Assembly (NCBI RefSeq): GCF_037892605.1
Contig: NZ_JBBKTU010000001.1
Coordinates: 2,046,001-2,110,000 of the forward strand
From: Lacibacter sp. H407
GTDB taxonomy: Bacteria > Bacteroidota > Bacteroidia > Chitinophagales > Chitinophagaceae
Length of the DNA: 64,000 nucleotides
Direction of reading: 5' to 3'
The translations under genes were made by a program, and so were the position numbers. The notes beneath the pieces are model-generated. The model did not search any database, was not told where the DNA came from, and saw only the letters and a list, made by a program, of their open reading frames with translations. Positions 3,629-30,500 of the stretch are shown piece after piece; the first letter of the stretch is position 1; the number at the start of each line of letters is the position of its first letter.

Positions 3629-6199
3629 TTATCTTGGTTCAAGAATATTGGTGATACGATCGCTCAAATCCTGCAAGTGCAGTTTCGTCATTGCATCTGT
3701 AGTAAGAGGCAATGCAACTTTAATATCATTCTTCAGCGTACGCAATGTTCCTTTCAGAATTGAGTAAGCATCGGTATTCTTGATATTCAATGAAGGTGAA
3801 ACCTGGAATGAAATACCAATGCCACCAAGTGTTAGCGGAGAAGCCCCACCCGGTAACAGAGTAATGATTCGTTCTACAAACATTTTCTGCAGATTACGAC
3901 GATATACATCGGTTGCTTTACGTGTATACACTTCGCTGAAGATCGAACGACGAAGATCGTCCATTACTTCTGTTGCTTTGTATGCACTGTTACCTAATGT
4001 AGCTTCTGCTTCAAACAGTTTGGTCATGGTTGATCCGCTGATGATACGATTCAAAACAGATTCCTGTCTGTTTGCAATTATGATCTGCGGATTGATACCT
4101 GTACGGCTGAAGATATCGTTATTGATCAACCAGGTTGGGGTTGCAAACAACTGCTGGTTTAAGAAATTCATTGCTTCTTTTTGCGTTGCTTTTGGCGTAA
4201 ACTCATACACAGGTCCTGCTTGCTCAGTCATTTTTGGTGTTTCATAAATACCGCCAATGTTTTTTGCAACATGACCCATGTAACGTCCGAATTGTGTTTG
4301 CACCTGATTGTACATTTCATCCAAACCTTCATAGCTTTCGTTTGGTTGTTTGGTCCAGTTGATTAAGTTCGGCACAATACGTTGCAGGTTCTTGATACCA
4401 TAACCACTTGCTTTCATTGCATCGTTACCCAAATCTTCGTTTTGTGAACGTGGATCGTCAGGATTTGTTTCTGTACCAAACCAAAGACGTTTGTTTTTCA
4501 AACGCTCAGTGGTCATTTTTTGCAACACAGGAACTTCTGCTTCTGCTGTTTTGTAATCAGGCATCCAGCGGTAACCCCATTCGATCGCCCATTTATCATA
4601 ATCACCAATACGTGGGAACAAGCCCAGTCTTGATATATTATCTTCCGGTTGTGCTACGTAGTTGAAACGTGCATAATCCATAATAGATGGCGTATGGCCA
4701 TTTGCTTCAACCCATGCTTTATTACGAAGGCTGTCAACAGGAACTGTTGAAGAAGAACCATAGTTATGACGAAGGCCTAATGTATGACCAACTTCGTGTG
4801 ATGATACAAAACGGATCAACTGTCCCATTAAATCATCATCGAGCACCATTGTGCGTGAACCCGGATCAACAGCAGCTGTTTGTATGAAATACCAGTTGCG
4901 TAAAAGGCTCATTACATTGTGATACCAGTTGATATGACTTTCCAGAATTTGTCCGCTGCGTGGATCGTGTACATTTGGTCCGCTTGCGTTCGCAACTTCA
5001 CTTGGTTTATAAACAATGGCACTGAAACGTGCATCTTCCAAACTCCAGGTACTGTCTTCTTGTTTTGTAGGAGCCATTTTACCCATGATGGCATTTTTAA
5101 ATCCTGCTTTTTCAAACGCAACCTGCCAGTCGTTTACACCATCGATCAAATACTTCACCCATTTTTTAGGTGTTGCAGGATCGATGTAATAAATGATCGG
5201 ATTTTTAGGCTCCACCAATTCGCCACGCTTGTATTTTTCGATGTCTTCATCTTTTGGTTCGAGTTTCCAGCGAACCGCCATTTGAATTTCTTTTACACCC
5301 TGTGGGTTTGCATCGAAATCGGTATAGCGTCTTGTAAAGAAACCAACTCGTGGATCGAAATAGCGAGGCTTTGCAGGTGTTTTTGGCAACAATAACATTG
5401 AGCTGTTTAATTCCAATGTGAAGTTTGCACTACGGGCAGCAGCAGCAAACGGATTTGTTTGTGCACCGGGGGCAGCAGCACCACGGCCGAATGTTTTTAC
5501 CGTTTTAATTTCAACATTCATCGGGTATGACTTGATACCAACGGTATAAGATTTGTCGGATTGAATAGCGCCCAATTGAAGACTTGCTTTGGAACCTGTA
5601 TTAAAAAATAATACATCGTTATCGCCAGCAATATATTCTGTCATATCAATAACAGTAGAACGTGTATTGGTAACCGAATCTCTGCCATAGGCACTTACTG
5701 CAAACGACTGCATAATGGGTTGAATGTTTGAATTCACAACCGCATTGAACATGCCTTCTGCATCGCTTCCACGTTGATCGTAAGAAACTCTTCTTAAAAA
5801 CACCCGGTTATTCGGGCCTTTTTCAAAACGGATCACGTTGTTATTTACAATATCACCTGCATAACCAGAAAAGCCATTGCTGAGGCCGCTTGCCGATTTT
5901 GAAATACGTGTAACAATAAGGATATCTCTGTTCAGCAAAGAATCTGGTAGTTCGAAATACGATTTGTCGTCAACCGTGTGCACCTTAAATAAACCGTCGT
6001 CGGTTTTGGCTTTATCGGTGATTACTTCTTTGTATGGCTTTGGCCCTGCAGTTGGACGTTGAGCCGCCGGGGGCATCATACCGGTTGGAGGTTGTGTACC
6101 ATTGCCGGTTGGCGGGTTGCCGGGCCTGTTTTGTGCCACAGTAGTTAAAGCACCGCTCAGGAAAACGAGCAGGCATAACGATTTTACATTTTTCATCAT
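3629..6199 (-). CDS. Secreted zinc-dependent metalloprotease, DUF5117/DUF4953 type
   Basis: This is a predicted 856-residue exported protease. A signal peptide (residues 1 to about 22, ending TTVAQ) is followed by a Pro/Gly/Asn-rich linker, a DUF5117-like N-terminal domain and a metzincin-like catalytic domain. The zinc site is HEVGHTLGLRH (His468, Glu469, His472, His478), matching HExxHxxGxxH. The DUF4953-like C-terminal half follows. Size and domain order match the TonB-era Bacteroidota family often annotated as zinc-dependent metalloprotease; natural substrates are not established. The frame extends upstream to a TTG at 6265, but ATG 6199 (MMKNVKS) places the signal peptide at the N-terminus. 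It stands alone, convergent with the permease and divergent from exbB. Confidence 0.9.
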   Translation of the reverse strand: MMKNVKSLCLLVFLSGALTTVAQNRPGNPPTGNGTQPPTGMMPPAAQRPTAGPKPYKEVITDKAKTDDGLFKVHTVDDKSYFELPDSLLNRDILIVTRISKSASGLSNGFSGYAGDIVNNNVIRFEKGPNNRVFLRRVSYDQRGSDAEGMFNAVVNSNIQPIMQSFAVSAYGRDSVTNTRSTVIDMTEYIAGDNDVLFFNTGSKASLQLGAIQSDKSYTVGIKSYPMNVEIKTVKTFGRGAAAPGAQTNPFAAAARSANFTLELNSSMLLLPKTPAKPRYFDPRVGFFTRRYTDFDANPQGVKEIQMAVRWKLEPKDEDIEKYKRGELVEPKNPIIYYIDPATPKKWVKYLIDGVNDWQVAFEKAGFKNAIMGKMAPTKQEDSTWSLEDARFSAIVYKPSEVANASGPNVHDPRSGQILESHINWYHNVMSLLRNWYFIQTAAVDPGSRTMVLDDDLMGQLIRFVSSHEVGHTLGLRHNYGSSSTVPVDSLRNKAWVEANGHTPSIMDYARFNYVAQPEDNISRLGLFPRIGDYDKWAIEWGYRWMPDYKTAEAEVPVLQKMTTERLKNKRLWFGTETNPDDPRSQNEDLGNDAMKASGYGIKNLQRIVPNLINWTKQPNESYEGLDEMYNQVQTQFGRYMGHVAKNIGGIYETPKMTEQAGPVYEFTPKATQKEAMNFLNQQLFATPTWLINNDIFSRTGINPQIIIANRQESVLNRIISGSTMTKLFEAEATLGNSAYKATEVMDDLRRSIFSEVYTRKATDVYRRNLQKMFVERIITLLPGGASPLTLGGIGISFQVSPSLNIKNTDAYSILKGTLRTLKNDIKVALPLTTDAMTKLHLQDLSDRITNILEPR

Positions 6200-11654: not shown

Positions 11655-12200
11655 TCAGGGAATGTCGATACTCCGGATGGTACATTCGTTCACAATTTTC
11701 CCATCGCCATATTTATCCCAAAAAATCACTTGTATGTTATAATTCTTTTCCCATTCCATGGGCTTGCCGGTATTGATGGTACATTTTAATCTTGTTGCTT
11801 CCTCTTTTTCAAATACATCATTACCTGCAAACAGATCTTTATCCTGAAACAGCACTTTCCCGTTTTCATCGCTGATGCGAAGGGAACAGCCAACAGAAAC
11901 CTTTCCATCTTTCTCCTGCATACCCGTTACATTTTCATTGATGAGGAGAAAACTTTCACCAATCGGAATATCTGTATGATTCAGTATTTCATTATTCATC
12001 ATCAGTATTGCTTTCTCCAACTCCATGTTTTGATATGTAGAAGTAAGACCGGTTGTAAGATCTTTTTTTACACCTGCAGTTTTATTCATCGAGCAGGCAG
12101 AGAAAAAAAGGATCAACAACAGCGAAGAAAGTACCGGCAGTAAACCCGTCGGTACCTGCAACGCTTGTTTAAAGATCGAAAAGGAGTTTTTCAGCAGCAT
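11655..12200 (-). CDS. Putative lipoprotein of unknown function
   Basis: I do not recognise this protein family. From ATG 12200 it is 181 residues. A long hydrophobic segment ends in LFFSAC, a plausible lipobox with Cys36, followed by a short Ser/Lys linker and a roughly 140-residue beta-rich domain containing EKAILMMNNEILNHTDIPIG, GCSLRISDENGKVL and INTGKPMEWEKNYNIQ. The C-terminal half resembles an immunoglobulin-like domain reporting agonist-like properties, but this is only an impression. In-frame ATGs at 12266, 12260 and 12248 would give longer versions, but the lipobox would then be more than 40 residues in. It stands alone, convergent with mnmE and 190 bp from the receiver gene upstream. 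Confidence 0.6.
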   Translation of the reverse strand: MLLKNSFSIFKQALQVPTGLLPVLSSLLLILFFSACSMNKTAGVKKDLTTGLTSTYQNMELEKAILMMNNEILNHTDIPIGESFLLINENVTGMQEKDGKVSVGCSLRISDENGKVLFQDKDLFAGNDVFEKEEATRLKCTINTGKPMEWEKNYNIQVIFWDKYGDGKIVNECTIRSIDIP

Positions 12201-12456
12201 TGACCATGCATTCCGGTGTTTTCTGTTTTGAGTATCCTGTAAAATCATAGATAGCAGCATGTTCATATCAGTTTAACATTGTAAAAATGCAACAGTTAAA
12301 TAGCAGCATAAAATATTACTGACTGAGATGCAGTACAAATAGATCGAAATGTGGTAAACGAATGTTGAAGCGTAAAACAGAAATTGCAAGTTCAGGATCT
12401 AAGCGAAATGCAACAGAAATAATATAGTAGAATATGTAAGATACGAAACAACAAGA

Positions 12457-16099: not shown

Positions 16100-17626
16100 T
16101 TAATCTGCAAATACCAGGTGTCCTGAAAACTGTGTAACATTTACATACGATGCACCGCCCTGTGATGCTGATACACCTGTTAATTCAGGATCATTAAATT
16201 CACCATTGAACCATCTGAATCGTACATAAACTTTATCACCGGCTGAAAGTTTTGCATCGGTACTTACGGAATAGTTTTGTCTTTGACCAATATTGTCAGG
16301 GTTATCCATCAATGTTTCAGCATAAGCGGAAACCTTCAAGCTGCTTATTTGTCCGGTACTGTTTACCCGAACTAATTCAGCCCAGCCAACAACGCCATCG
16401 GATCTAATGCCAACAGAGGCATCAAAATGATATACACCGCTGTGAGGTGCTGTGAAAACAGAATTTGCCGCTGTACCACCAACACTAATCGTGTTTCCAT
16501 AATCATAATCAACATTATTAAAGAAAACTTTAAACCAGTTAATTTCACTGTAATTATTAAGTCCGCCGGGATAAACCCCTGAAACTTTAAAAGCAACTTT
16601 AGGCGGAGCTGTAGGTGCGGGTGGTAAATTTTGCCAAGTGGCATTACCAGCAGCATCACTTGTTAATACTTTACCAGCACTTGGGTTTGTATTGCCTCCG
16701 CTTATTTTTACATTTCCTACAACTTCCAGTGCTTTGCCTCCCGAGTTTGTTTGAAAAAACTTCCCCGCTACTCCTGAATTACCTGTAGCAATACCAAAGA
16801 TTGCAGTACCATTACCAGCTGAAGAATACACACCATACCCCAGGTCGTTAGCCATTGCACGAACACCTGTTCCCTCGGCTGTTGCAACACCAAAAATACC
16901 GTTACCAAATGCAGTTTCTCCTTTTATTCCCGAGCCATTCAAAGCTTGTCCTAAAACTCCAGCTCCCGTTGTATTTGATCCGGATGTATATCCATGAACT
17001 CCATAGCCACCCATTGTTCCGTTTACACCTGTTACACCACCCACTCCCGTTGTATAGCTGTAGCCGGAAATACCACTTTTTGTTTGTGACACACCAACAA
17101 TACCAACGCCGTTAATACTTTCTCCGTTAATCGCCGGAAGTTGACCCACAGCGTTATTTTTAATCGTAAAAACCGGTGAAGAATTGCTGTTTACAGTTGT
17201 GTCGAATGGAAAGACCAACTGTTTTGCCTGTAAACTGTGTATAGCAAACGGCACACTCATCATTTGTGTAGTGCCAAGATTTGCATACGGCTGGCCATTT
17301 ACACTTATTTCTGTTTGTAAAAATTTTGCACCTGCTGCCCAGTTGATGGTTGTAAAATTTCCCTGAATTGCAGATGCGCCTGCACTGCCGATCTGTACAT
17401 TAAATAAACCAAACTGGTTGGTAGTTACACTGCGTGTTTCACTGTATTCAATGTTTCCTTCAGGCGTACCTGTATGAATTGATAATCTTACATTGATTTG
17501 TTGCCCCGCATAAGCTACACCACTTGCATTGCGGGCAACGCCCTGGTAGTTGATTGCCTGCGGAGCCTGTGCCCAGACAGCTGCCGTAAATAATAGTAAA
17601 AAAATTGAAGTGAAAAACTGTTTCAT
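16100..17626 (-). CDS. Secreted surface protein with Gly-rich repeats and C-terminal C1q-like domain
   Basis: From ATG 17626 this is 508 residues. A signal peptide ends at AVWAQ. A conserved N-terminal module (APQAINYQGVARNASG) resembles that of many Bacteroidota tail-fibre-like proteins. Residues of roughly 170-320 contain at least eight imperfect repeats built on G-(I/V)-x-G, such as GVGIVGVS and GAGVLGQ. The last 150 residues look like a C1q/TNF-like jelly roll (FTAPHSGVYHFDASV, DKVYVRFRWFNGEF, FSGHLVF). Such proteins trimerise and act in adhesion. The frame is open to 17677, but the extra residues precede the signal peptide. No type IX sorting domain was found at its C-terminus. Confidence 0.78.
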   Translation of the reverse strand: MKQFFTSIFLLLFTAAVWAQAPQAINYQGVARNASGVAYAGQQINVRLSIHTGTPEGNIEYSETRSVTTNQFGLFNVQIGSAGASAIQGNFTTINWAAGAKFLQTEISVNGQPYANLGTTQMMSVPFAIHSLQAKQLVFPFDTTVNSNSSPVFTIKNNAVGQLPAINGESINGVGIVGVSQTKSGISGYSYTTGVGGVTGVNGTMGGYGVHGYTSGSNTTGAGVLGQALNGSGIKGETAFGNGIFGVATAEGTGVRAMANDLGYGVYSSAGNGTAIFGIATGNSGVAGKFFQTNSGGKALEVVGNVKISGGNTNPSAGKVLTSDAAGNATWQNLPPAPTAPPKVAFKVSGVYPGGLNNYSEINWFKVFFNNVDYDYGNTISVGGTAANSVFTAPHSGVYHFDASVGIRSDGVVGWAELVRVNSTGQISSLKVSAYAETLMDNPDNIGQRQNYSVSTDAKLSAGDKVYVRFRWFNGEFNDPELTGVSASQGGASYVNVTQFSGHLVFAD

Positions 17627-17947
17627 AAATAGATGTTTTGTGTTGATGATGAAATGATTTTTTGTTTGACGGATCAAAAATGGAAAACAATCAACCTATT
17701 TAAAAACTTATCTCCTGTTGGTGTGGGGGTTTGCTTTTGAATAGTAGAAAATGACAGTTGAATAGTTTATTGAAAAAATGTTGAACGTAGTAATGCAAGA
17801 CAGAAGTCAATAATCGATTGCTTCGATTAAGTATAAGCACTCTATTTGACTTTTGCCACCTTTGAATAAACAAAACTTACCGTTGACTCAGTTCTATTTT
17901 TATTCGCACAGCCGACGATGCATTTTTACAGCCTCAAAACAGAATCT

Positions 17948-18706
17948 ATGAAATTGGTTATTGTTTTTCTGGCAGCGGCATTGTTGCTGTTGAATTGCAA
18001 AAAGAGCAGAATAACACCTGTGACAGATATAACACCTGTTGCTGCAAAACAACCGGCAACTATCCTCACCGATCATGGCGAAACGTTCAATTTGTTATAC
18101 GATGAGCATGGGCAGCTGCTTGTACATACAACAGGAACTGCTGTTTATTATTACAAACCCGGCAGCGATCATTTTCTTACTGAGTTGTTGAAAGAGACCA
18201 ACAAAAAAATTATCTATAAGCATGCGCAACGGGATGTACACAACAGAATTATTCAACTCGAAAAATTCAGTGCGGATGTTGCCGAAGCCACCATAGAGTT
18301 TACTTACAACAGCGATGGATTTTTAAGTAAGCGAAAGCTAAGTGTTGAAGGGTCCGGTATAGTTCAGGAGTTTATTTATACGTATGATGCGGGTAACCTG
18401 GTTAAGATAGAGGAATACGAAGATGCGGTACTGAAATCCACATTACTAATGGAATACGATAATAACCGTTTCAATTCTGTGGCCATTGATCTCTTTGATT
18501 TCAAGCAGATCGGATTTATAACCGATGCACAGTTTGGTAAACAATCGAAAAACCTTGTAAAAAGTATAAAGGCAGTGATCCCCAATGAACAGGTAGGGAT
18601 AGCATTTCAATACATCTATAAGACAGATGCAGATGGATATGTGAAGTCGATGGAGATTGAAACCAGTAACGAAGCGATAAGGAAGTACAATTTCATTTTT
18701 CAATAG
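17948..18706 (+). CDS. Putative lipoprotein, tandem family member 1
   Basis: This 252-residue predicted lipoprotein has a hydrophobic signal and Cys17 followed by Lys-Lys (LLNCKKS). It is the first of four tandem paralogues. Short beta-hairpin-like units recall YD/RHS-type repeats (YDEHGQLLVH, YNSDGFLSKRKL, YDAGNLVKIEEY). A family signature LFDFKQIGFITDAQFGKQS lies near residue 190. Function is unknown; the repeats suggest an extended surface beta structure. ATG 17948 is preferred to 17918 because it places the signal at the N-terminus. A hairpin terminator follows 20 bp after the stop. Its promoter has only a weak match to the repeats found upstream of its paralogues. Confidence 0.8.
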   Translation: MKLVIVFLAAALLLLNCKKSRITPVTDITPVAAKQPATILTDHGETFNLLYDEHGQLLVHTTGTAVYYYKPGSDHFLTELLKETNKKIIYKHAQRDVHNRIIQLEKFSADVAEATIEFTYNSDGFLSKRKLSVEGSGIVQEFIYTYDAGNLVKIEEYEDAVLKSTLLMEYDNNRFNSVAIDLFDFKQIGFITDAQFGKQSKNLVKSIKAVIPNEQVGIAFQYIYKTDADGYVKSMEIETSNEAIRKYNFIFQ

Positions 18707-18754: not shown

Positions 18755-18793
18755 TTGCGATATATCTAACAGCACTTATAAACAAAACTGGTT

Positions 18794-18823
18794 ACAGATA
18801 AAATCTATTCTCCTACACCTTAA
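18794..18823 (+). promoter_or_regulatory. LytTR-type direct repeat upstream of lipoprotein 2
   Basis: ACAGATAAA (18794-18802) and ACACCTTAA (18815-18823) are spaced exactly 21 bp start to start, and both are preceded by T or CT. About 25 bp further on is a TATAAAATTTTTG stretch that could be the -7 element, and the ATG is 92 bp downstream. The 9-12-9 layout is that of LytTR binding sites. The first half-site is the weaker one, with six of nine matches to ACACTTCAA. Confidence 0.6.
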
Positions 18824-18915
18824 CTGCAAATTCTTTCGCATTGATGATATAAAATTTTTGCAGGCTGTTTGTAATTGCATTTTTACAGTATTAATTAAAA
18901 CATCAGTTAAAATTT

Positions 18916-19653
18916 ATGAAACATCTAATCATCGCAGTAACAGCGGCAGTAGTACTGTTATCCTGTAAAAAAGACAAACAAACAACAGCTTTCAACAAAA
19001 AGCTAACAGAAATGAAACTTTCAAATGGCGGTTATTATAACTTTTCATATAACAATGCGGGGCTTATTACTAACGCATCAGGAAAGTTCACCACTACTGT
19101 TTATCAGCAGCAAAAGGCCTTTGAATCAAAACATACATATTTAAGCAGCGGTAATGTTTATGATTTAAAAAATACAGTACGCAATGCTTCCGGAAAGATT
19201 ATTTATGCGGAACGATTCCAGAATGGAATACTCTTTTCAAAAGTTGAACTGAACTATTCCCCTGATGGTTATCTTACAAAAGCTTCCTGGAGTAAAGATG
19301 GCGCAGTAAGCAAAACAGAACTTTTCTTTTTTTATGAAAATGGAAATCTTGTAAAAATCACAAACCATTCTAATGGTCAGCTTACAAATACATACCTGTA
19401 TGAATATGACCTCAACACATTAAATCCTCTTCAGCTGGATTGGTATGAATTTAATCAAATTGGCCATATTACAGATGATCAATTCGGGAAATTCAGCAAA
19501 AATCTTATCAAAAAGTATAAAGTATTGGATAAAAACGGAAACGTCTTTACAGAAACACAATTCAATTTTATACTTGATGCGGAAGGATATCCTGTTTCGC
19601 TAGATGAGAAAGCAAATAATTATAATGTGAAATACACATTCAAATTTGAATAA
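18916..19653 (+). CDS. Putative lipoprotein, tandem family member 2
   Basis: This 245-residue paralogue of the preceding lipoprotein has Cys17-Lys-Lys (LLSCKKD). It shares the YD-like hairpin units (YNNAGLITNASG, YSPDGYLTKASW, FYENGNLVKIT) and the family signature WYEFNQIGHITDDQFGKFS at about residue 175. Function is unknown; export to the outer membrane is likely. It has its own promoter region with a 21-bp direct repeat, so its control is separate from member 1, whose terminator lies between them. No terminator was seen before member 3, whose extended reading frame overlaps this stop. Confidence 0.8.
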   Translation: MKHLIIAVTAAVVLLSCKKDKQTTAFNKKLTEMKLSNGGYYNFSYNNAGLITNASGKFTTTVYQQQKAFESKHTYLSSGNVYDLKNTVRNASGKIIYAERFQNGILFSKVELNYSPDGYLTKASWSKDGAVSKTELFFFYENGNLVKITNHSNGQLTNTYLYEYDLNTLNPLQLDWYEFNQIGHITDDQFGKFSKNLIKKYKVLDKNGNVFTETQFNFILDAEGYPVSLDEKANNYNVKYTFKFE

Positions 19654-19686
19654 CTGTTATGTATCCTTTTATAATCAAGTCAATCT

Positions 19687-19716
19687 GTATTCAACAATTT
19701 TACGATTACATAAATC
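19687..19716 (+). promoter_or_regulatory. Weak LytTR-like repeat upstream of lipoprotein 3
   Basis: GTATTCAAC (19687-19695) and ACATAAATC (19708-19716) are 21 bp apart, with a TAATTTAC -7-like element about 20 bp beyond the second half. Half-sites match ACACTTCAA poorly, so this is a tentative member of the set. Confidence 0.3.
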
Positions 19717-19768
19717 TGTAAAGTGTGTTAACTGGCAAATTAATTTACAAACATCTAAAAAAAACAAA

Positions 19769-20515
19769 ATGAAAAGATTAGTATTATTCGGACTTCTTGC
19801 TGCATTTTTCAGCAGTTGTAAAAAAGACAAAGCACCCGCAGATACAATATCTGCATTTAAAAAGAATCTTATTTCTGTTTCAGCTCCCGGCCAAAGTGAA
19901 TGGACAATGTTTTATGCAAACGATCGCAAACTGCTATCGTTTAAAAATAACGAAATGAGCATAAGTTATAAACCCGGTATTCCTTTCTCGGCTAAGAAAA
20001 CAGCATTGGGTTCTGTAAGTGAATATAAAAATGCGGTACAGGATGCGCAGGGCAGGGTTACAAAACTTGAGCGTTACAAATCAGGTGCACTAATCTCTAA
20101 ACAGGAATTTAAATACAATGCCGAAGGTTATCTTATTGAACAGACAATTAGTCTAACAAGTTCAAATACTTTCGAAAAATCTGTATACGACTACCAAAAC
20201 GGAAACCTTACTTCAATATCGCTTTATATAGGCGGTATAAAAATGGGCTCGTTTGTTTTTGATTATTACACAAACCTCAGTAATCCGATTCAATTTGATC
20301 TGTTTGACTTTAAACGAATAGAATTTGTAACCGATGCTCAATTTGGAAAGCAATCGAAAAACCTGCTAAAAAACGTTAAACTTTATGATGCTTCCGGACA
20401 GCATTTTGTTGAGCTTAATCTCAGTTACGCAACAGATGCTGAAGGGTACATTAAAACGATGATCTATTCATTAAACGGGCAAGGTACAATAACTTACACC
20501 TTTTCTTTTCAGTAA
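19769..20515 (+). CDS. Putative lipoprotein, tandem family member 3
   Basis: This 248-residue paralogue has Cys17-Lys-Lys (FSSCKKD), hairpin units (YNAEGYLIEQTI, YDYQNGNLTSIS) and the signature LFDFKRIEFVTDAQFGKQS, which is closest to member 1. The reading frame is open to 19646, but those 41 residues have no signal and overlap the previous gene, so the ATG at 19769 (MKRLVLFG) is used. A terminator follows 18 bp after the stop. The short leader AAACATCTAAAAA before the ATG is shared with member 4. Confidence 0.8.
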   Translation: MKRLVLFGLLAAFFSSCKKDKAPADTISAFKKNLISVSAPGQSEWTMFYANDRKLLSFKNNEMSISYKPGIPFSAKKTALGSVSEYKNAVQDAQGRVTKLERYKSGALISKQEFKYNAEGYLIEQTISLTSSNTFEKSVYDYQNGNLTSISLYIGGIKMGSFVFDYYTNLSNPIQFDLFDFKRIEFVTDAQFGKQSKNLLKNVKLYDASGQHFVELNLSYATDAEGYIKTMIYSLNGQGTITYTFSFQ

Positions 20516-20533
20516 GAGAAATGTTGCAAAATC

Positions 20534-20560
20534 AAAGCCCTGCATCATGCAGGGCTTTTT
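20534..20560 (+). terminator. Terminator after lipoprotein 3
   Basis: 11-bp arms (AAAGCCCTGCA and its complement) have a 3-base loop and a short T-run. Confidence 0.87.
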
Positions 20561-20597
20561 ACGTTTTTGTCTCATCTGATTTAAGTAAGCACTGCTT

Positions 20598-20627
20598 ACA
20601 AATAAAATTGATTCTTCTACACCTTAA
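20598..20627 (+). promoter_or_regulatory. LytTR-type direct repeat upstream of lipoprotein 4
   Basis: ACAAATAAA (20598-20606) and ACACCTTAA (20619-20627) are exactly 21 bp apart. The second half and its flank (CTACACCTTAACTG) are identical to the site before lipoprotein 2, although the genes have diverged. A TATTTTTTAC -7-like element lies about 32 bp beyond the second half, and the ATG is 96 bp downstream. Confidence 0.6.
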
Positions 20628-20723
20628 CTGTAAATTCCCTCGGATAGCTTGTATTTATTTTTTACCGGCAGTTTGTGATTGCATTTTGCACTATCAATTA
20701 AAAAACATCTAAAAACAAAAATT

Positions 20724-21479
20724 ATGAAAAAGGTTTTTTTTGCATTTGCAACATTGCTTATTATCTCATCATGTAAGAAGAGTGTAGATTCTCCTGCGCA
20801 ACAACCAGCCAATCAAAAGATCACAAAGATCGAATACCAGGAACCGAATTATTCAAGCATGCGCACCATTGCTTACGATGATAAGGGAAGAATTAGTGTG
20901 TTTGCATTTAATAACGAAATGGATGAGTTTACATATCCTTCAAGCAATTCTATGTTGGTGAAAAGAAAAAATAAAACAACAGGTGAACTAAAATCGACCT
21001 TTGAGGCAGTGTTAAATAATGCCGGTGCTATTACTTCCATGAAGTTGACTCTGCCGGATGGTAAGGTGTCAGAAATTCTTACATTCACGTATAATGCAGA
21101 AGGCTACATGACGAAAATGAAAGACGAGTATCCGCTTAACGGAAATGTTTACGATCGTGAATATTCATGGTCAAATGGAAATGTTGTTTCGGGAAAGTAT
21201 TGGTATAAAGGGTCGCATGTTTACAATTATGAGGTACAATACGATGTTACAAAGCTGACCAGTGTTCCTGAAACACCATTTTATCGCTGGCCGTCTTATA
21301 CGTTATTTGGAAAAACAGTCAGGAATCCGTACACAGAAAACAAATTATTCAACGCCAACGGCACACTCAGTAGTCACTATAAATTTGTGCAGCAATACGA
21401 TGCACTTGGCCGCATCGTGAAAATTACTGAAAATGATCAGATCAATAATGCATCTGGTACATACAGTTACAGTTATTGA
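20724..21479 (+). CDS. Putative lipoprotein, tandem family member 4 (diverged)
   Basis: This 251-residue predicted lipoprotein has Cys17-Lys-Lys (IISSCKKS). Hairpin units are present (YDDKGRISVFAF, YNAEGYMTKMKDEY, YDALGRIVKIT), the last being a near-canonical YD repeat. The family signature seen near residue 175-190 in members 1-3 is replaced by FYRWPSYTLFGKTVRNP, so this copy is clearly more distant. Function is unknown. ATG 20724 is preferred over 20679. Its stop is followed by a terminator and then the sensor kinase gene. Confidence 0.8.
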   Translation: MKKVFFAFATLLIISSCKKSVDSPAQQPANQKITKIEYQEPNYSSMRTIAYDDKGRISVFAFNNEMDEFTYPSSNSMLVKRKNKTTGELKSTFEAVLNNAGAITSMKLTLPDGKVSEILTFTYNAEGYMTKMKDEYPLNGNVYDREYSWSNGNVVSGKYWYKGSHVYNYEVQYDVTKLTSVPETPFYRWPSYTLFGKTVRNPYTENKLFNANGTLSSHYKFVQQYDALGRIVKITENDQINNASGTYSYSY

Positions 21480-21515
21480 AATCACCAATATTGGATTTGA
21501 AAGAATACAGAGATC

Positions 21516-21540
21516 AAAGCCCGGTTATTCCGGGCTTTTA
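21516..21540 (+). terminator. Terminator after lipoprotein 4
   Basis: 9-bp arms (AAAGCCCGG/CCGGGCTTT) have a 5-base loop and end in TTTTA. The downstream edge touches the first half of the LytTR-type repeat before the sensor gene. Confidence 0.83.
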
Positions 21541-21569
21541 CGTTTCAACCCGTTTTCCCTACACTTCAA
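21540..21569 (+). promoter_or_regulatory. LytTR-type direct repeat upstream of the propeller sensor kinase
   Basis: ACGTTTCAA (21540-21548) and ACACTTCAA (21561-21569) are exactly 21 bp apart, with seven of nine identical bases. The extended halves TTACGTTTCAAC and CTACACTTCAAC are nearly the same. A TATATTTCC -7-like element follows, and the ATG is 67 bp downstream. This predicts autoregulation of the kinase/LytTR operon. Confidence 0.68.
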
Positions 21570-21636
21570 CTCCCATTCTGCAGTTTTTCAGCGATATATT
21601 TCCATATCAGCGCAGGAATAATAAATTTGAGGACGC

Positions 21637-24624
21637 ATGAAAATCCTTCTTTCCATCCTGTTCTCCATTTTCCTGTTAAGCGATGCATCTGCACAGCAGA
21701 GCCGTTTCTTTTTCAAGAAGCTTACAGTAGCTGATGGCCTGAACGACGGCGGTATACTTGCGCTTTCTCAGGATAGCAGGGGTTTTATTTGGTTTTCAAC
21801 AAGAGCCGGGCTTAACAGATTCGATGGTTATTCAGTTAAAAGTTACAGCTACATAGCCGGCGATAGTACTTCGCTACCAACTTCGCTTTCACGTGCTATG
21901 TCGCCCGATAGCAGCGGCGGGTTCCTCGTAGGTCTTGAAGACGGCATGCTGGAGTACAATGCAAATACTGATCGGTTTACACCGGTAAAGGCATTGGAGG
22001 GAACATGGGTGTTTCAAATTGAACCCATTAATAAAACCACTGTATTTATTTCCACCCGTAAAGGATTGGTGAAATACAATCCCGTAACAAAAAAAGCATA
22101 CTACTATAAAGATGGGCCAGTTGAAGTGTTGAAGGGACGGGTGTTTTCATTTGAGCGGAAAGAAAATTTCCTGTTTTTTATAAGTACCGACGGTTTGTAC
22201 AGGTTCAATACCACAACGGAGCAAGTGAATAAGATCAGTATCCCGTTTATTGAAGGCAAGCCGTTAATGGCTATGACGATCGATCACAAAAAGAATTACT
22301 GGCTGGTGGTGAATGATAAAGAAGCGGTGATAAAAGTATCGCCTGATCTGCAACAGTACGAAGTGTACAGCGAGTTTTTTGAATCAGGAAAAAATACCAT
22401 TGGAAATTTTACCTCAATGATCTCCGATAAAAAAGGAAGGATCTGGATCACCACACAATTAGATGGATTGTTGTTTTATAATGAACGTTTGAATAAGTTT
22501 GAACGCATTCTTCACGATCCGTTAAAAGTATGGACGCCTTCAACCAACCTGCACAGCAGTGCTTACTGCGACAAGGATGGTGTAATGTGGATAGCAGGTA
22601 ACAACGGTGTTAATTACTTCAATCCAGATAAAAATCTGTTTCACATTATCCCGGTATTTAATAAAGACGTAGACATCCGCAACCGCCGCGTGGCAAGGAT
22701 AGCAACCGAAGACAAGAATGGCAAACTATGGTTTGGAACAATTGACGGATTGGTGAAGTACGATCCTGTTACAAACGAATATCGTGAATGGAATAACAGA
22801 GATGATCAAGCACCAATGATCCATTTCAATTCTGTTCGTGGTTTGTTGTGTGATGATGAGAATAATATCTGGATCGCAACCGGCAGAGGCATCAATCAAT
22901 ACTTGCAGAAGGAAAATAAAATGATTTTTTACACTTCGAAAGATTCGATCCCAGCAGTTTTTTATTTCTCTGCCGATAAAGACCGAAGCGGTAACTTCTG
23001 GTTTTCCACAAGAGACGGAGACGGTTTTTACTATTACAATACAAAAGAAAAAAAATTTCACAGCATCCGTTCGTTTCCGGGATTGAGCAGATTTGCAGGG
23101 AACGGCGGACGAAAATTATTTCACGACAGTAAGGGACGTTACTGGCTTGGCTTTAATGGAAGTGGTTTGGCCATGTATGATGCAGCAGCAGATACTTCTC
23201 ATCATTGGGTTGCTTCAACAAACGGGCAACAAGGTATTTCAGGTAACAGCATTGTTGATATTACAGAGGATAAGAAAGGAATTGTATGGATCAGTACGTT
23301 TACCGGGTTAACGTCGATTGATCCGGAAACGAAAACCATCAAAAATTATAATCAAACCAACGGACTTATTAATAACAGTGCCAGTGCAATTGCTGTTGAT
23401 GTACAAAACAGGTTATGGATCGCAACGGGAGCTGGTTTAATGATGCTGGATAGCAGTCGCACTTATTTTACATCGTTTGGATTGCAGCACGGATTGCCCT
23501 CTATTGAATTTCCCGAGCATGCTGCTTCCGTATTGTCTGATGGTGATGTGATGATGCCTACGCAAAACGGCTTTGTGCGTTTTTCACCACAGCAATTTAC
23601 AAAAGAGCATAAGCAGTTGGTACCCTTCTTTACTTCATTTGCATTGTCGGGCAAACAGGCACAAGCCCTGTTGCAGGATGAGATCGTATTGAAGCACGAT
23701 GAGAATTTTTTCACGATCGGTTTTGCGGCGATCAATTATGAAAATGCATCGGGCACCTGGTATGCATACAAGTTAGATGGAGTAGATAAAGACTGGAAGT
23801 ATACACAAAACCGGTTTGCTGATTATACAAAACTGCCCGGCGGCAATTATACGTTTCATGTAAAAGCATCGGATGATCGTATGGAATGGAATTGCACAGA
23901 GAAAACGATCAACATTCACATTGCTACTGTTTTCTATAAAACATGGTGGTTTCGGTTGATGATCTTTTTAATAGCTATTGCTCTTGTGTATGTATTCTAT
24001 CGCTACCGTATTCGTCAGCAACAAAAGTTGCTGGAGCTGCAAGGGAAGGCACAATTGCTGGAAAAAGAAAAAGTAATGGTGATGTATGAAAGCTTACGGC
24101 AACAGTTGAATCCGCATTTTCTGTTTAACTCATTAACATCTTTATCAGGACTTATCCAAACCGATCAAAAGATGGCGGGTAATTTCCTGGAGCAGATGTC
24201 GAAGATCTATCGCTACATTTTAAAGAACAGGGATAGTGAGCTGGTGAGTTTAAAAGAAGAACTCGCTTTTGTACAGGTGTACATCAACCTGCAAAAAACA
24301 CGATTCAAAGAAGGCTTGCAGGTAAAGATGAATGTAAGCGAAGAGGAACTCCATAAAAAAATTGCACCTGTTACGTTGCAGAACTTAGTAGAGAATGCCA
24401 TGAAGCATAACATCATTGATCTTGATACGCCATTGATCATTGAAATAGTAAGCGAAGATGGTTACTTGTTGGTGAAGAATAATCTGCAGAAGAAGAATTT
24501 GGTGGAAACATCCAACAAGCAGGGGCTTGCCAGCTTACAATCATTGTATCAATACCTGAGCAGAAGACCGGTGTTAATTGAAGAAACAACAAGTGAATTC
24601 ATTATCCGTATTCCGTTGATCTGA
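21637..24624 (+). CDS. Sensor histidine kinase with two-component regulator propeller (LytS-like kinase core)
   Basis: This 995-residue membrane sensor has a signal peptide (1-20). Roughly 650 residues of Reg_prop beta-propeller repeats follow, recurring as DSRGFIWFSTRAGLNRFDG, DKKGRIWITTQLDGL and DKKGIVWISTFTGL. A Y_Y_Y-like Ig domain ends at about 765 and a transmembrane helix spans about 769-790. The cytoplasmic kinase is of the His_kinase (PF06580/LytS) type with phospho-acceptor His827 in QQLNPHFLFNSL and N-box LVENAMKHN. Propeller kinases of this kind in Bacteroidota usually sense carbohydrates or surface cues through the periplasm. The LytTR regulator gene follows 20 bp later and is the cognate partner. 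Confidence 0.93.
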   Translation: MKILLSILFSIFLLSDASAQQSRFFFKKLTVADGLNDGGILALSQDSRGFIWFSTRAGLNRFDGYSVKSYSYIAGDSTSLPTSLSRAMSPDSSGGFLVGLEDGMLEYNANTDRFTPVKALEGTWVFQIEPINKTTVFISTRKGLVKYNPVTKKAYYYKDGPVEVLKGRVFSFERKENFLFFISTDGLYRFNTTTEQVNKISIPFIEGKPLMAMTIDHKKNYWLVVNDKEAVIKVSPDLQQYEVYSEFFESGKNTIGNFTSMISDKKGRIWITTQLDGLLFYNERLNKFERILHDPLKVWTPSTNLHSSAYCDKDGVMWIAGNNGVNYFNPDKNLFHIIPVFNKDVDIRNRRVARIATEDKNGKLWFGTIDGLVKYDPVTNEYREWNNRDDQAPMIHFNSVRGLLCDDENNIWIATGRGINQYLQKENKMIFYTSKDSIPAVFYFSADKDRSGNFWFSTRDGDGFYYYNTKEKKFHSIRSFPGLSRFAGNGGRKLFHDSKGRYWLGFNGSGLAMYDAAADTSHHWVASTNGQQGISGNSIVDITEDKKGIVWISTFTGLTSIDPETKTIKNYNQTNGLINNSASAIAVDVQNRLWIATGAGLMMLDSSRTYFTSFGLQHGLPSIEFPEHAASVLSDGDVMMPTQNGFVRFSPQQFTKEHKQLVPFFTSFALSGKQAQALLQDEIVLKHDENFFTIGFAAINYENASGTWYAYKLDGVDKDWKYTQNRFADYTKLPGGNYTFHVKASDDRMEWNCTEKTINIHIATVFYKTWWFRLMIFLIAIALVYVFYRYRIRQQQKLLELQGKAQLLEKEKVMVMYESLRQQLNPHFLFNSLTSLSGLIQTDQKMAGNFLEQMSKIYRYILKNRDSELVSLKEELAFVQVYINLQKTRFKEGLQVKMNVSEEELHKKIAPVTLQNLVENAMKHNIIDLDTPLIIEIVSEDGYLLVKNNLQKKNLVETSNKQGLASLQSLYQYLSRRPVLIEETTSEFIIRIPLI

Positions 24625-24644
24625 TCACATTTTAAAACAGTTAT

Positions 24645-25418
24645 ATGAAAGCAGTTATTATTGAAGACGAAGACATCATTGCACGTGTATTGCAAGGCAA
24701 GATCAAAAATGTTGACCCTTCCATTGATGTAGTTGAAATCATCCCCAGTTTGAAAGTGGCAAAGAAATGGTTTTTCAATAATGCCGAGCCTGATATCTTA
24801 TTTATGGATATTCAATTGAGCGATGGTGTAAGTTTCGAACTGCTTGAGCATTTTAAACTCAATTGCCCCATTGTATTCACCACAGCTTATGATGAGTATG
24901 CCATTCGTGCTTTTAAAGTGAACGGAGTTGATTATTTATTGAAACCAGTTGATGAAGAGGAGTTAACAAGAGCGATTAATAAATGCAAAGCTATTATTGA
25001 ACGAAAGAATCCGGTTGCTACCGATTTCACTGAGTTAATGAAAGCATTGGCCAATCCGCAACAGTCGGTGAATAAGTACAAGGAACGATTCCTTGTAAAC
25101 ATCCGCAACCAGTGGATGCCCATTGCTACAAGTGACATTGCCTGCTTCGCCAAAGAAGCGCTCAACTATGTGTACCTGTTTAATGGCGATCGCTATATGC
25201 TTGATTTTTCTACACTGGATGATGTTGAGGAGGTGCTTAACCCAGATCAGTTTTACAGGGCCAATCGCCAATACATCATTAACATCGATGCTATTCAAAC
25301 AGTGAAGCCAATGGAGAATTCAAAGCTCACTATCCGCCTGAAAGAACCCAATCATAAATTTGAAATTGATATGAGCCGGGAAAAAGCGCCGGTGTTTAAA
25401 AAATGGGTAGACAAATAA
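24645..25418 (+). CDS. LytTR-family response regulator
   Basis: This 257-residue DNA-binding regulator has an N-terminal receiver (about 1-120) with EDED at 7-10, phospho-acceptor Asp55 in ILFMDIQLSDG, a conserved Thr (FTTAYDEYAIRAF) and Lys in the LLKPVD motif. The C-terminal LytTR domain (about 150-255) has KERFLVNIRNQW, DIACFAKEALNYVYLF and FYRANRQYIINIDAI. It starts 20 bp after the kinase stop. The direct repeats listed nearby have the spacing and sequence style that LytTR proteins bind, so it is the likely regulator of its own operon, the lipoproteins and the globins. Confidence 0.95.
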   Translation: MKAVIIEDEDIIARVLQGKIKNVDPSIDVVEIIPSLKVAKKWFFNNAEPDILFMDIQLSDGVSFELLEHFKLNCPIVFTTAYDEYAIRAFKVNGVDYLLKPVDEEELTRAINKCKAIIERKNPVATDFTELMKALANPQQSVNKYKERFLVNIRNQWMPIATSDIACFAKEALNYVYLFNGDRYMLDFSTLDDVEEVLNPDQFYRANRQYIINIDAIQTVKPMENSKLTIRLKEPNHKFEIDMSREKAPVFKKWVDK

Positions 25419-25437
25419 TTTGTTTTGTTATAACACA

Positions 25438-25467
25438 ACACTTCAGTTTAATTTCAATACGCTTCAA
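25438..25467 (+). promoter_or_regulatory. LytTR-type direct repeat upstream of the small protein/globin operon
   Basis: ACACTTCAG (25438-25446) and ACGCTTCAA (25459-25467) are exactly 21 bp apart, with seven of nine matching bases. The site begins 19 bp after the LytTR gene ends and lies 58 bp before the next ATG. Confidence 0.65.
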
Positions 25468-25525
25468 CAGGATAAATTTTTAATCCCCCTCATCTGATTG
25501 AATATTTGTAAGCAAAACAAAGGAT

Positions 25526-25837
25526 ATGTTGCTACAATGGTTCAATCGTTTACTTCAGAAAAATAACAGGCGCTTGATATACGAGCAACTGCAATGGCAG
25601 CGCTTTCTGTTACGCACCGGTGTTCCTGCAACAGCACATATTCTTGATATAGTGGAAGAGAATGACCAATTACTTGGTTATGTGCAACTACGCCTGTGGG
25701 TCATGTTGAAGATCAAAGGTGTTGTTACTTACAGGCACATGCAAACTCTTCTCAACAAAGAGCAGAAGCCACACGTTGGCGATTTGGTACACATCCGCTA
25801 TTGCCCTGATGACCTTTCAAGAATTTTAATTGTTTAA
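25526..25837 (+). CDS. Small protein of unknown function
   Basis: I cannot assign this 103-residue protein. The first 30 residues are basic and helical (LLQWFNRLLQKNNRRLIYEQLQW). The rest looks like a small beta domain with TGVPATAHILDIVEEND, a hydrophobic strand QLRLWVMLKIKG and a final GDLVHIRYCPDDLSRILIV. That ending resembles the small OB-like domains that close with a (V/I)xYxPxDxxxxxI pattern, but no family is claimed. There is no signal peptide. It lies downstream of a LytTR-type repeat and 23 bp before the first globin, so it probably shares that transcript. Confidence 0.7.
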   Translation: MLLQWFNRLLQKNNRRLIYEQLQWQRFLLRTGVPATAHILDIVEENDQLLGYVQLRLWVMLKIKGVVTYRHMQTLLNKEQKPHVGDLVHIRYCPDDLSRILIV

Positions 25838-25860
25838 TTATCACTTTAAAATAAATAAAA

Positions 25861-26286
25861 ATGACAGCTAACGAAACTCACCTCGTAAAGTATTCCTGGT
25901 CGGTTGTTGAACGTATTGATCCTGTAGTGGCAGGTGGAATCTTTTACAAACGTCTTTTTGAATCGGCACCTTATTTAAAGCCAATGTTCAGCGAATCAAT
26001 TCCTGTGCAATCAAAAAAATTGATGGCTATGATCGGTTATGTGATCAACAGGCTTGATAAGCTGGATACAATTCTTGAAGATGTAAAACAATTAGCAAAG
26101 CGTCGCGTGAAATATGGAGTGCAGGAAGAGCATTATGAAATTGTAGGCAGTGCTTTGTTATGGACATTAGCGCAGGCATTGGCAAACCTATTTACTGACG
26201 AAGTAAAACAGGCTTGGGCTAACTGCTATAATCTATTGGCATCAGCTATGTTGGAAGCAACGGCTGAAGCACCTGAACGTGCATAA
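25861..26286 (+). CDS. Single-domain globin lacking the proximal histidine
   Basis: This 141-residue globin belongs to the bacterial flavohemoglobin/Vitreoscilla-like group. It has Tyr29 at B10 (GIFYKRLFESAP), Phe43 at CD1 (KPMF) and Gln50 at E7, with a VGSALLWTL G helix. The heme-ligating proximal His of the F helix is expected in the LAK-(R/Q)-H-V segment, but the residue there is Arg82 (codon CGC at 26104-26106). The neighbouring globin has His at the same position. It may therefore bind heme differently or not at all. It lies 23 bp after the small unknown gene and ends before a terminator. Confidence 0.88.
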   Translation: MTANETHLVKYSWSVVERIDPVVAGGIFYKRLFESAPYLKPMFSESIPVQSKKLMAMIGYVINRLDKLDTILEDVKQLAKRRVKYGVQEEHYEIVGSALLWTLAQALANLFTDEVKQAWANCYNLLASAMLEATAEAPERA

Positions 26287-26317
26287 TTGGTTCTCCTGGT
26301 ATATAAGGTTTGATGCT

Positions 26318-26344
26318 GCCCCCGATATAAATCGGGGGCTTTTA
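26318..26344 (+). terminator. Terminator after globin 1
   Basis: 9-bp arms (GCCCCCGAT/ATCGGGGGC) with a 4-base loop and T-run. The T-run abuts the next LytTR-type repeat. Confidence 0.88.
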
Positions 26345-26373
26345 CACTTCAATCAATTTTTGCTACACTTCAC
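26344..26373 (+). promoter_or_regulatory. LytTR-type direct repeat upstream of globin 2
   Basis: ACACTTCAA (26344-26352) and ACACTTCAC (26365-26373) are exactly 21 bp apart and differ by one base. This is the best-conserved site of the set. The ATG is 63 bp downstream, after a TACTTTC -7-like element. Confidence 0.72.
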
Positions 26374-26436: not shown

Positions 26437-26847
26437 ATGACAAAGGAAGAAATCATATTGATCAAACGTACATGGAAGCTCTTCCGGGAAATTAACCCGG
26501 TTGTTGTGGGTGATACATTTTATTCGAAACTTTTTCTTGAGAATCCATCGGTACGTAAAATGTTTCCAAAGGAAATGAATCAGCAATATCAGAAGTTAAT
26601 CGATATGCTCAGCACAATAGTAGGCCGGCTCGACAATCTGGAAGAATTATCAAGCGATATAGCTGCAATGGCGCAACGTCATGTAGCATATGGTGTAAAA
26701 CCGGCACAATACCAAAAAGTAGGAGAAGCCCTGTTGTGGACATTGGAACAAGGGCTCGGAAAAGATTATACACCGGAAGTAAAGGAAGCATGGACCAAAT
26801 GTTACACTGCACTGGCTGATGCCATGATCAATGCAACCGCAAACTGA
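26437..26847 (+). CDS. Single-domain globin with intact heme site
   Basis: This 136-residue globin is a paralogue of the preceding one. It has Tyr29 at B10 (DTFYSKLFLENP), Phe43 at CD1 (RKMF), Gln50 at E7 and the proximal His82 (MAQRHVAYGV), so heme binding is expected. Such globins handle oxygen or nitric oxide. It contains no reductase domain, so any dioxygenase cycle would need an external reductase. A LytTR-type repeat lies directly upstream and a terminator lies after the stop, so it is a separate transcription unit. Confidence 0.92.
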   Translation: MTKEEIILIKRTWKLFREINPVVVGDTFYSKLFLENPSVRKMFPKEMNQQYQKLIDMLSTIVGRLDNLEELSSDIAAMAQRHVAYGVKPAQYQKVGEALLWTLEQGLGKDYTPEVKEAWTKCYTALADAMINATAN

Positions 26848-27513: not shown

Positions 27514-30500
27514 GTGCCTTTTTCAAAATCCATATCAAGTAATATAGACGATCAGCATACAGCCGGTTTGCAAAGTAACGATCAGTTACTGAAAGCTGTC
27601 TTTAATATCACAGCCATTGGTATTGTTGTAGTGGATGAAGCCGGTAGCCTGGTGGAAGTAAATGACCGCATTTGTAAAATGTTTGGCTATGAGCGTAATG
27701 AGTTACTGGGTAAGCCGCATACAATTCTTCATATTGAAGAAGAAATACAGGCAGCCATCGAAGCACATGTTACTTTTTTTAACGGACAGGATAGCGACGG
27801 TGAAAAAGAATGGACAGGCATCACAAAAAATAAGGAGAAGATCATTGTTTCATACAGTGCAAATTTGCTGTTACAGGATAACGGGCAACGGTTCAAAGTA
27901 AAATCGATACGTGATGTTACCAATGAACGGAAAACAGAAAAACTGCTTGAAGCCAGCCGTATAAAATTTGAATCGATCTTTGAAAATTCCTTACAGGCAT
28001 TTTTTCTTACAAAACCTGATGGCACTATTTTAGAAGCAAACAGAGCTGCTTGTGAAATGTTTGGTTATACTGAAGAGGAATTGTGCAAGTTGGGAAGGCA
28101 GGCAATTATTGATCATACTGATATACGGCTAACTGAAAAACTAAAAGAACGCAGTGCAACAGGGGTTGCCTCCGGTGAGCTGACGGGCATTCGAAAAAAT
28201 GGCCAGCATTTTCCAATTGAGTTCTCATCCTATGTTTTTATTGATAAAAACGGAGAAGAACGAACCAGTACAGTAATTGCAGATATTTCTGATCGTAAGG
28301 AACAGGAATTGAAGTTGCGTCAGTCGCAGGAAGAAATGGCTTCCATCCTCAACAATACGGAAGAAATATTCATGATCATTGATCGTGAATATCGCTTAGT
28401 GAACTATAACAAAGCTGCCGAAGAACGTTCGGCCGAACTGTTGGCCATGCCATTGAAACGTGGAGACAGTCTGTTGAAGTGGGCAGATCCGGAACGGTAT
28501 CAAATTCTGAAAAATATATACGATCGTGTATTGAACGGTGAAACGATCCGTTACAAACACACAATATCGAAAAATGGCGAAACAGCTACTCTGCAACTTT
28601 CCTATTTACCAGTTGTGAGTGATGATGGTTTATGTGATCGGTTCATGGTAAGTGTACGTGAAATAACGGTAGAAGAAAATGCACTGAAGGCGATCATCAG
28701 TAAGCGAGAGCTTTTAACCCAGGCAGAAGCAATTGCGCATGTTGGCAGTTGGGAACTTGATCTTACAACAAATACATTGCATTGGTCCGATGAGGTGTTT
28801 CGCATTTGCGGTTACCAGCCCGGAGCATTTGAAGTAACATTCGAAAAAGGATTGGAGGTAATTCATCCTGATGACCAAGCTTCTTCAGTTGAAGAAATGC
28901 AACAGGCAATACAGAATAAACGGGACTACGCTGCCAACAAGCGATTTGTACGACCCGACGGTAGTATCCGCTACATTGTATCGAAGGCAAAAATAATTTT
29001 GAATAACGAGGGAAATGCAGTGCGGTTGGTTGGCGTATTTCATGATATTACTGAACTAAAAGAAGTAGAGCGTGAGTTGGCGATCAGCCAGCAGGAATAC
29101 AAAACGTTGTTTGAGCAACACCCCGATGCGGTGGTATCATTTGATTTAACAGGAAAATTCACCAGTGTAAATGATGGTGCATTAGAGTTGGCAGAGGCAT
29201 CACGTGAGCAATTGCTGAAAAGTGATTTTGTACAGTATATTGATGTTGATAAAGCAGGTGATATCATCAACTATTTTCTGGAAGTTGTCAATGGAAAAAC
29301 ACAACGTTTCGAAACAGTTATTATTACCAGCACCAACGTACGGAAGTCGGTGAATGTGATTCTTATGCCCATCTATATTCAACAGGAGATAACGGGTGTG
29401 TATGGTGTGTTAAAAGATATTACGATTGAAAATTTGTACGAACAGGAATTGGAGTTTCAATCCCATTTACTGAATACCATTCAGCAATCTGTGATCGTTA
29501 CAAAACTGGATGGAACGATCATATTTTGGAACGGGTTTGCTGAAAAATTATACGGTTGGAAAAGAGAAGATGTTGTTGGCATCAACATTATGGAGGTAAC
29601 ACCAACAGAAATGTCGATTGAACAAGGTGCTGAAATAATGGCCAGGCTTTCGCAAGGTGAGAGTTGGTCGGGTGAGTTTTTGGTAATGCATAGAACCAAA
29701 GGACCATTTACTGCTCAGATATATAATTCGCCTGTAACTGACACAAATGGAAAATTAACAGGTATTATTGGTGTTAGCTGGGATATTACCGAGCAAAAGA
29801 AATACGAACAACAAAAAGAATTTGATCGTCTCGATAAGGAAGCGCTCATTAACACCACCACCGATCTTATATGGAGCGTTAGCAGCGATTATAAATTGCT
29901 TGCAGCCAACAAGGCTTTCCTGGAAAGCTTGAAATTATCGGATGATTTATTCCTGAAGCCAGGTGATGATGTTTTAATTCCGTCTGTATTTTCAGAAGAA
30001 AATGTAACGTTCTGGCGTCAGCACTATGCCCGTGCTTTAACAGGGGAATCGTTCACGATAGAATTACATACGGCGGAAAGAGGAGCGGTGGATGAACATT
30101 GGGATGAGATCATCTTCAACCCCATTACTAAAAATGGAGACGTAATTGGTGTAGCATGCCGGGGTAGAGATATAACACAAAATAAAAATTATCAACGGGA
30201 GTTATTGACCATCAATAACCAGTTGGAAATGGCACAGCAAATTGCAAAGCTGGGCTATTGGTCGCATGATTTGAAGAACGATGTTTTATTCTGGTCAAAG
30301 GAGGTGTACACAATTTTTGGATTGGAAGAGCAAGCATTCAATGGAGATTTTAATTCTTTTTTCCGTCGGGTACACCCCGAAGATCAGCAAGGATTTCTTG
30401 AAGGGCAACAACGTATTCTCAAAGGAGATGCACCTCTGGATCACGAACATCGAATAGTATTGCCAAATGGAGATATAAAATACGTTATTCAAAAAGGCAC

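Follow-up and report, generated by a model that had tools for sequence, protein, structure and literature searches.

Within the genome of Lacibacter sp. H407 (4.87 Mb), the 64,000-nucleotide stretch analysed here, referred to as the window (G000:C1:2046001-2110000; positions given without a locus name are window coordinates), contains a region with four lipoprotein-like genes, a propeller histidine kinase, a LytTR response regulator, a 103-amino-acid (aa) protein and two single-domain globins, and the question it raises is what governs them. The original prediction held that direct repeats of 9 base pairs (bp), 12 bp apart and found upstream of five genes, are the operators of the regulator encoded at 24645. 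At a rough probability of 0.78, the analysis described here points to the same reading, in which the repeats would serve a kinase/LytTR system that governs itself, the globins and surface proteins.

The locus and its regulator

The genes central to this reading are the following.

21637..24624, + strand: propeller sensor histidine kinase (Reg_prop, Y_Y_Y and His_kinase domains)
24645..25418, + strand: LytTR response regulator (Response_reg and LytTR domains), the putative binder
25526..25837, + strand: 103-aa protein upstream of globin 1 (no Pfam match; a helix and 5 strands predicted)
25861..26286, + strand: single-domain globin 1 (Globin domain)
26437..26847, + strand: single-domain globin 2 (Globin domain)

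The kinase, of the PF06580 type of His_kinase, adjoins the regulator, with 20 bp between the kinase end and the regulator gene. The regulator bears a receiver and a LytTR DNA-binding domain, both over their curated cut-offs, and domain and operator tests place the system among the LytTR two-component regulators. In a search meant to map its DNA-contact residues, the only structures matching the regulator alignment at E <= 1e-10 were of receiver domains. As had been noted, this is the only LytTR gene in the window, yet it is one of 11 in the genome.

Strong candidate operators

Published work gives 9-bp repeats 12 bp apart as the rule for LytTR binding (PMC2766830). The pattern used here was TACACTTCA-N12-TACACTTCA, with mismatches counted over the 18 half-site positions and a consensus derived partly from the tested sites, such that the test is not blind. 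All five predicted repeats are present, their coordinates lying one base earlier here since TACACTTCA is used. Three are strong, as follows.

21539..21568, + strand: predicted operator of the kinase-LytTR operon, TACGTTTCA-N12-TACACTTCA, 2 mismatches; kept in G003 and G001
25437..25466, + strand: predicted operator of the small 103-aa protein and globin 1, AACACTTCA-N12-TACGCTTCA, 2 mismatches; kept in G003, G007 and G001
26343..26372, + strand: predicted operator of globin 2, TACACTTCA-N12-TACACTTCA, 0 mismatches; kept in G003, G007, G001 and G004

When spacers of 0-40 were scanned on both strands at two mismatches or fewer, the window gave three matches with spacer 12 on the + strand and one match altogether in the remaining 81 spacer/strand combinations, and none of 60 dinucleotide-shuffled windows contained a match. 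Genome-wide at the same threshold there are six matches, three of which are the window sites that helped to define the pattern, against one with the reversed pattern and 0.44 expected from base composition; at three mismatches or fewer the count is 19 against seven for the reversed pattern. Chance repeats are unlikely given the spacing scan, the shuffles and the reversed patterns.

Of the three matches outside the window, two precede genes: a DUF5694 gene, and a DUF2807 gene that adjoins another LytTR regulator. The third falls within a coding frame (at 2944992) and was rejected. The DUF5694 protein has a predicted structure with a mean predicted local distance difference test score (pLDDT) of 48, which was not used. 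The regulon had been described as local; the sites do cluster around the regulator, but the DUF5694 site lies 0.9 Mb from the window cluster, and several likely targets within the window had been missed.

A matrix scan of the window returned 10 matches scoring at least 10, four of them proposed operators. Those at 28454 (-), 49638 (+) and 50468 (+) lie within coding frames and were set aside, and the remaining three, at 4311 (+), 39481 (-) and 9079 (-), score 10-11. Both the kinase operator and that of globin 2 open on the T-run of a GC-rich inverted repeat (21518-21547 and 26322-26351), an arrangement that looks like a terminator merged with an operator; neither was listed by the terminator scan.

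Conservation within Lacibacter

Beyond the retention of individual sites given above, 25 matches were found over 14 genomes of the genus, 13 of which precede kinase, small-protein, globin 2 or DUF5694 genes, compared to five matches for the reversed pattern. Close DUF5694 orthologs (82-91% identity) were found in G003, G004 and G007 among the 14 genomes searched, and the site stands about 65 bp before the ATG in all four Lacibacter genomes with a close ortholog, the window genome included. In G012, which lacks the regulator group (proteins matching the window regulator at E <= 1e-70), a 27% DUF5694 homolog has no site at up to four mismatches in the fetched 3.8 kb. Globins matching globin 2 occur in six of six Lacibacter genomes with the regulator (at least 55% identity) and in none of the eight without it.

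Recurrence in other genera

The regulator group is present in 58 of 394 family genomes, a sample drawn evenly from a larger group. Outside the genus, the DNA around 20 well-scoring group members was fetched, together with two loci to which the small protein had led. Training on 14 Lacibacter sites gave a matrix that was applied to 20 loci at a threshold score of 12, with L094, L095, L097, L098, L118, L119, L160 and L165 standing outside the test (as a continuation, or for having no regulator, being a duplicate or having no kinase match). Of 22 kinases, 13 have a score of at least 12 upstream, as do 7 of 14 globins; among 219 other open reading frames the figure is 11, and among 21 regulator genes it is zero. 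For kinases, globins and small genes pooled, Fisher's test gives p = 1.7e-12, a value uncorrected for relatedness, with one small gene counted twice (two overlapping reading frames) and with some of the 219 frames possibly being true targets. An apparent second spacing (spacer 7) was taken as an echo, as all eight of the listed matches overlap a spacer-12 site.

Globins are linked to the regulator group: 12 of 22 regulator loci outside the genus contain a globin in the fetched DNA, and of 33 globin matches in 21 such genomes, 17 have a group regulator no more than 5 kb away. These genomes were chosen for regulator presence, and several of the 16 other matches lie on different, sometimes small contigs and are unplaceable.

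The hairpin-like T-runs at which the kinase and globin 2 sites begin, though listed by no terminator scan, might suggest that the repeats are not operators but arise as a side effect of terminators, of core promoters or of a dispersed repeat. This explanation is most improbable, as conservation in the out-of-genus test is higher for the half-sites than for most spacer columns, the placement is similar before orthologous genes of other genera, the reversed-pattern controls are low, and the small-protein and DUF5694 sites have no hairpin directly in front.

Weaker and additional candidate sites

Further candidate targets and their upstream repeats were recognized around the cluster.

17948..18706, + strand: lipoprotein 1 (weak DUF4595 match, under its cut-off)
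17857..17886, + strand: operator-like repeat with a different half-site before lipoprotein 1, CACCTTTGA-N12-TTACCGTTGA region, 21-bp lag; promoter-like element at +33
18916..19653, + strand: lipoprotein 2 (weak RHS_repeat match, under its cut-off)
18793..18822, + strand: weak operator-like repeat before lipoprotein 2, TACAGATAA-N12-TACACCTTA; promoter-like element at +54
20724..21479, + strand: lipoprotein 4 (RHS_repeat over its cut-off; DUF4595 weak)
20597..20626, + strand: weak operator-like repeat before lipoprotein 4, TACAAATAA-N12-TACACCTTA; near copy of the lipoprotein 2 promoter
16100..17626, - strand: fibre-like protein, candidate target (weak match, under cut-off, to the N-terminus of mosaic adhesive trimer fibres)
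17738..17767, - strand: predicted operator of the fibre-like gene, AACTATTCA-N12-TACTATTCA; equivalents in G003 and G001
11655..12266, - strand: lipoprotein-like protein (gene 11655), candidate target (no Pfam match)
12345..12374, - strand: predicted operator of gene 11655, TACGCTTCA-N12-CACATTTCG, matrix score 22.7; equivalents in G007 and G003

Of the five operators first proposed, those of the kinase, of the small protein with globin 1, and of globin 2 are thus strong, while those of lipoproteins 2 and 4 are much weaker, of a different half-site flavour and less certain in their regulator, though conserved. The latter two have matrix scores below 10, and as their promoters are near copies of one another they do not count as independent evidence. 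Repeats like theirs precede two lipoprotein genes in G003 and one in G001, and repeats related to that of lipoprotein 1 occur in G003, G007 and G001. A consensus-free test did not single out the 21-bp lag for the lipoprotein 2, lipoprotein 4 or small-protein promoters. Homologs of gene 11655 are found in 6 of the 22 regulator loci outside Lacibacter. Across the cluster, the 21-bp period is common and the half-site letters are variable.

Arrays of three half-sites at 21-bp spacing were apparent by eye at second-kinase promoters in G003, G055 and G002; the loci with arrays before second kinases are L093 (upstream of 1151), L050 (upstream of 14091) and L057 (near 6719). Two more (L160 5032-5082 and 5407-5457, scoring 12-17) stand before an apparently kinase-less regulator, and L165 has a single match of 12.0 far from its regulator. 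Repeats of the TACAATTCA type, also with a 21-bp period, cluster near another LytTR regulator and kinase-like genes in the window genome (L059, G000:C1:708000-727000; 3951-4100, 7221 and 13600), and G007 has a similar repeat close to the equivalent position (L089). This cluster may represent a second regulon, one that uses a half-site of its own.

Promoter geometry

Measured from the end of the site, the distance to the ATG is 59-97 bp, close to the 58-96 bp first given. A -7-like element, TAnnTTTG, is described at -12 to -5 in Flavobacterium psychrophilum (PMC9723704), and such an element had been noted 20-40 bp beyond the second half-site in most cases. This element, or the related GCAWTTTTACAG, is indeed found, and its positions are better described as two classes, 33-35 bp past the operator (globin 2, lipoprotein 1, small protein and DUF5694) and 53-55 bp past it (kinase, lipoprotein 2, fibre gene and gene 11655). 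Assignment to the 33 and 54 bp classes was made after inspection. GCAWTTTTACAG lies precisely 33 bp away for globin 2 and lipoprotein 1, and precisely 54 bp away for lipoprotein 2, two G003 lipoproteins and gene 11655, a difference of 21 bp, and TANNTTTG (0-1 mismatch) is found at +53 in seven of nine kinase promoters from four genera. For lipoprotein 4, the promoter-like element could not be matched well.

The best eight-column information exceeded 1000 random-shift controls in each of four promoter sets, two of which were picked by eye, and the set of all nine globins peaks at offset 34. GCAWTTTTACAG is mildly enriched in the window, with five matches against 1.4 expected and two of 100 shuffles reaching five. 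If these are -7 elements, the operators would end near -46 or -65, positions typical of upstream activators. The -7-like TAAATTTG of the kinase (21622-21637) stops seven bases short of the ATG, so that the kinase mRNA may be almost leaderless.

Which sites and which regulator

It is possible, although doubtful, that the regulon consists of the strong sites alone (kinase, small protein/globin 1, globin 2, DUF5694 and gene 11655), with the repeats of lipoproteins 1, 2 and 4 and of the fibre gene reflecting chance or other regulators. Their weak half-sites, matrix scores below 10 and near-copy promoters would fit such a restricted set, as would the finding that only one of seven lipoproteins scores at least 12 in other genera; conversely, these repeats are kept in sister species, and the promoter-like elements of lipoprotein 1 (+33) and lipoprotein 2 (+54) fall at distances seen elsewhere.

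Several observations weigh against control of the full set by the window regulator. Lipoprotein 3 has no recognized repeat upstream, only one of four small genes and one of seven lipoproteins reach the threshold in other genera, and nine of the 22 kinases and seven of the 14 globins there score below 12. For the two nearest regulators outside the genus, those of G379 and G399, the kinase is not preceded by such a site, and the set of all ten kinase promoters outside the genus peaks at a T-run at +27 rather than at +53. The half-site letters also vary from one candidate target to the next, so that a single protein may be unable to bind every one. In G007, the kinase ortholog was not found in the fetched DNA and the regulator ortholog is present only as frame-shifted pieces (L055 8066-8731), with the small-protein, globin 2 and DUF5694 operators nevertheless intact.

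The G007 case, in which a paralog with 73% LytTR-domain identity is intact, bears most directly on the idea that the repeats are LytTR operators whose main binder is another LytTR regulator, or which are shared among paralogs, with the window regulator governing part of the set. The 11 LytTR genes of the genome, the varying half-site letters and the resemblance of the TACAATTCA-type repeats around another LytTR gene (L059) to the fibre-gene site are consistent with this idea. It is nonetheless unlikely, as the window genome has no other close paralog, the next best LytTR protein being 35-38% identical, and the strong sites flank the window regulator, its own operon included. In relatives with several LytTR regulators, which of them binds is less secure.

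Binding by a LytTR regulator remains the best reading because of the domain make-up, the 21-bp period and the published LytTR rule. The proposal of LytTR control with autoregulation, a prediction from DNA sequence, draws support from the scarcity of the motif in the genome, its conservation in sister species, its recurrence in other genera and the linkage to globins.

The globins and the small protein

Both window globins bear a Globin domain and match best PDB 3wfw, 3s1i and 3ubc, followed by 1vhb and neuroglobins. A near-invariant His, present in 12 of 13 aligned globins including globin 2, is replaced by Arg in globin 1. This column is probably the haem-binding (ligand) position, and globin 1 may, to judge from its sequence, bind haem differently or not at all. 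Compared to globins of the 3wfw/3s1i/3ubc type, those of the window differ in forming two tandem copies beside a LytTR system, in addition to the Arg for His in globin 1. The G001 match to globin 2 (L052 near 12776; G001:C24:84775-85182) has one in-frame TAG.

The 103-aa protein was found in 7 of 195 family genomes and belongs to no Pfam or NCBIfam family. In G112 (L095 9599-10723), a lipoprotein gene and the small gene occupy the syntenic place, with no globin, kinase or regulator beside them. Its predicted fold, an N-terminal helix and five strands with a mean pLDDT of 85, has no PDB match at E <= 0.001, and hence no function is drawn from the fold.

Relation to known LytTR systems

The half-site TACACTTCA seems to depart from the AgrA-type letters, and from the described LytTR consensus in one core letter. 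The window sites resemble the operators of LytTR proteins (AlgR/AgrA/LytR), for example those of SilA, in consisting of two direct repeats with a 21-bp period, upstream of target promoters and near regulator genes, with SilA of group A streptococcus described as recognizing 10-bp repeats with an 11-bp spacer (PMC2766830). In contrast to the SilA system, the sensor here is a propeller kinase rather than a peptide receptor, and the candidate targets are globins and surface proteins rather than peptide or bacteriocin genes (PMC2766830). The BlpR/BlpS system of Streptococcus gallolyticus likewise pairs a LytTR regulator with a motif of about 30 bp upstream of target operons; the motif is described there for a single locus only, whereas the one here has a further copy 0.9 Mb away (PMC8545106). 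No description of LytTR control of globins was found in the literature searched, which included few subscription papers and is thus weak evidence of absence; the same literature held nothing combining LytTR with Chitinophaga, and no target set for the window regulator.

Proposed mechanism and significance

Seen directly in the sequences are the sites with their spacing and conservation, the recurrence in other genera and the globin linkage; what follows is a model. The propeller of the kinase, probably periplasmic, would sense a signal, upon which the kinase, given its domains and its adjacency to the regulator, would phosphorylate the latter. A regulator dimer is envisaged to occupy the two 9-bp half-sites, which, at 21 bp apart, would present themselves on the same face of the DNA, and a single regulator may recognize all half-site flavours. 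From its place ahead of the promoter, at either of two distances that are helically equivalent, the bound regulator would aid RNA polymerase. Its candidate targets are the kinase-regulator operon, the small protein with globin 1, globin 2, the fibre-like gene, several lipoprotein genes and the remote DUF5694 gene.

A broader proposal, tentative and falling somewhat short of even odds, is that a family-wide orthologous propeller-kinase/LytTR group has as its dedicated role the joint control of single-domain globins, surface lipoproteins and fibre-like proteins, with activation from two helically equivalent distances one 21-bp repeat apart, and that envelope sensing and a haem-protein response (to nitric oxide, oxygen or haem stress) would form one circuit. 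The system offers a candidate regulator for the single-domain globins of Bacteroidota, with operators, promoter geometry and targets open to joint analysis and to checks across several genera, and it makes the signal testable, since the globins, the lipoproteins and the DUF5694 gene should respond jointly.

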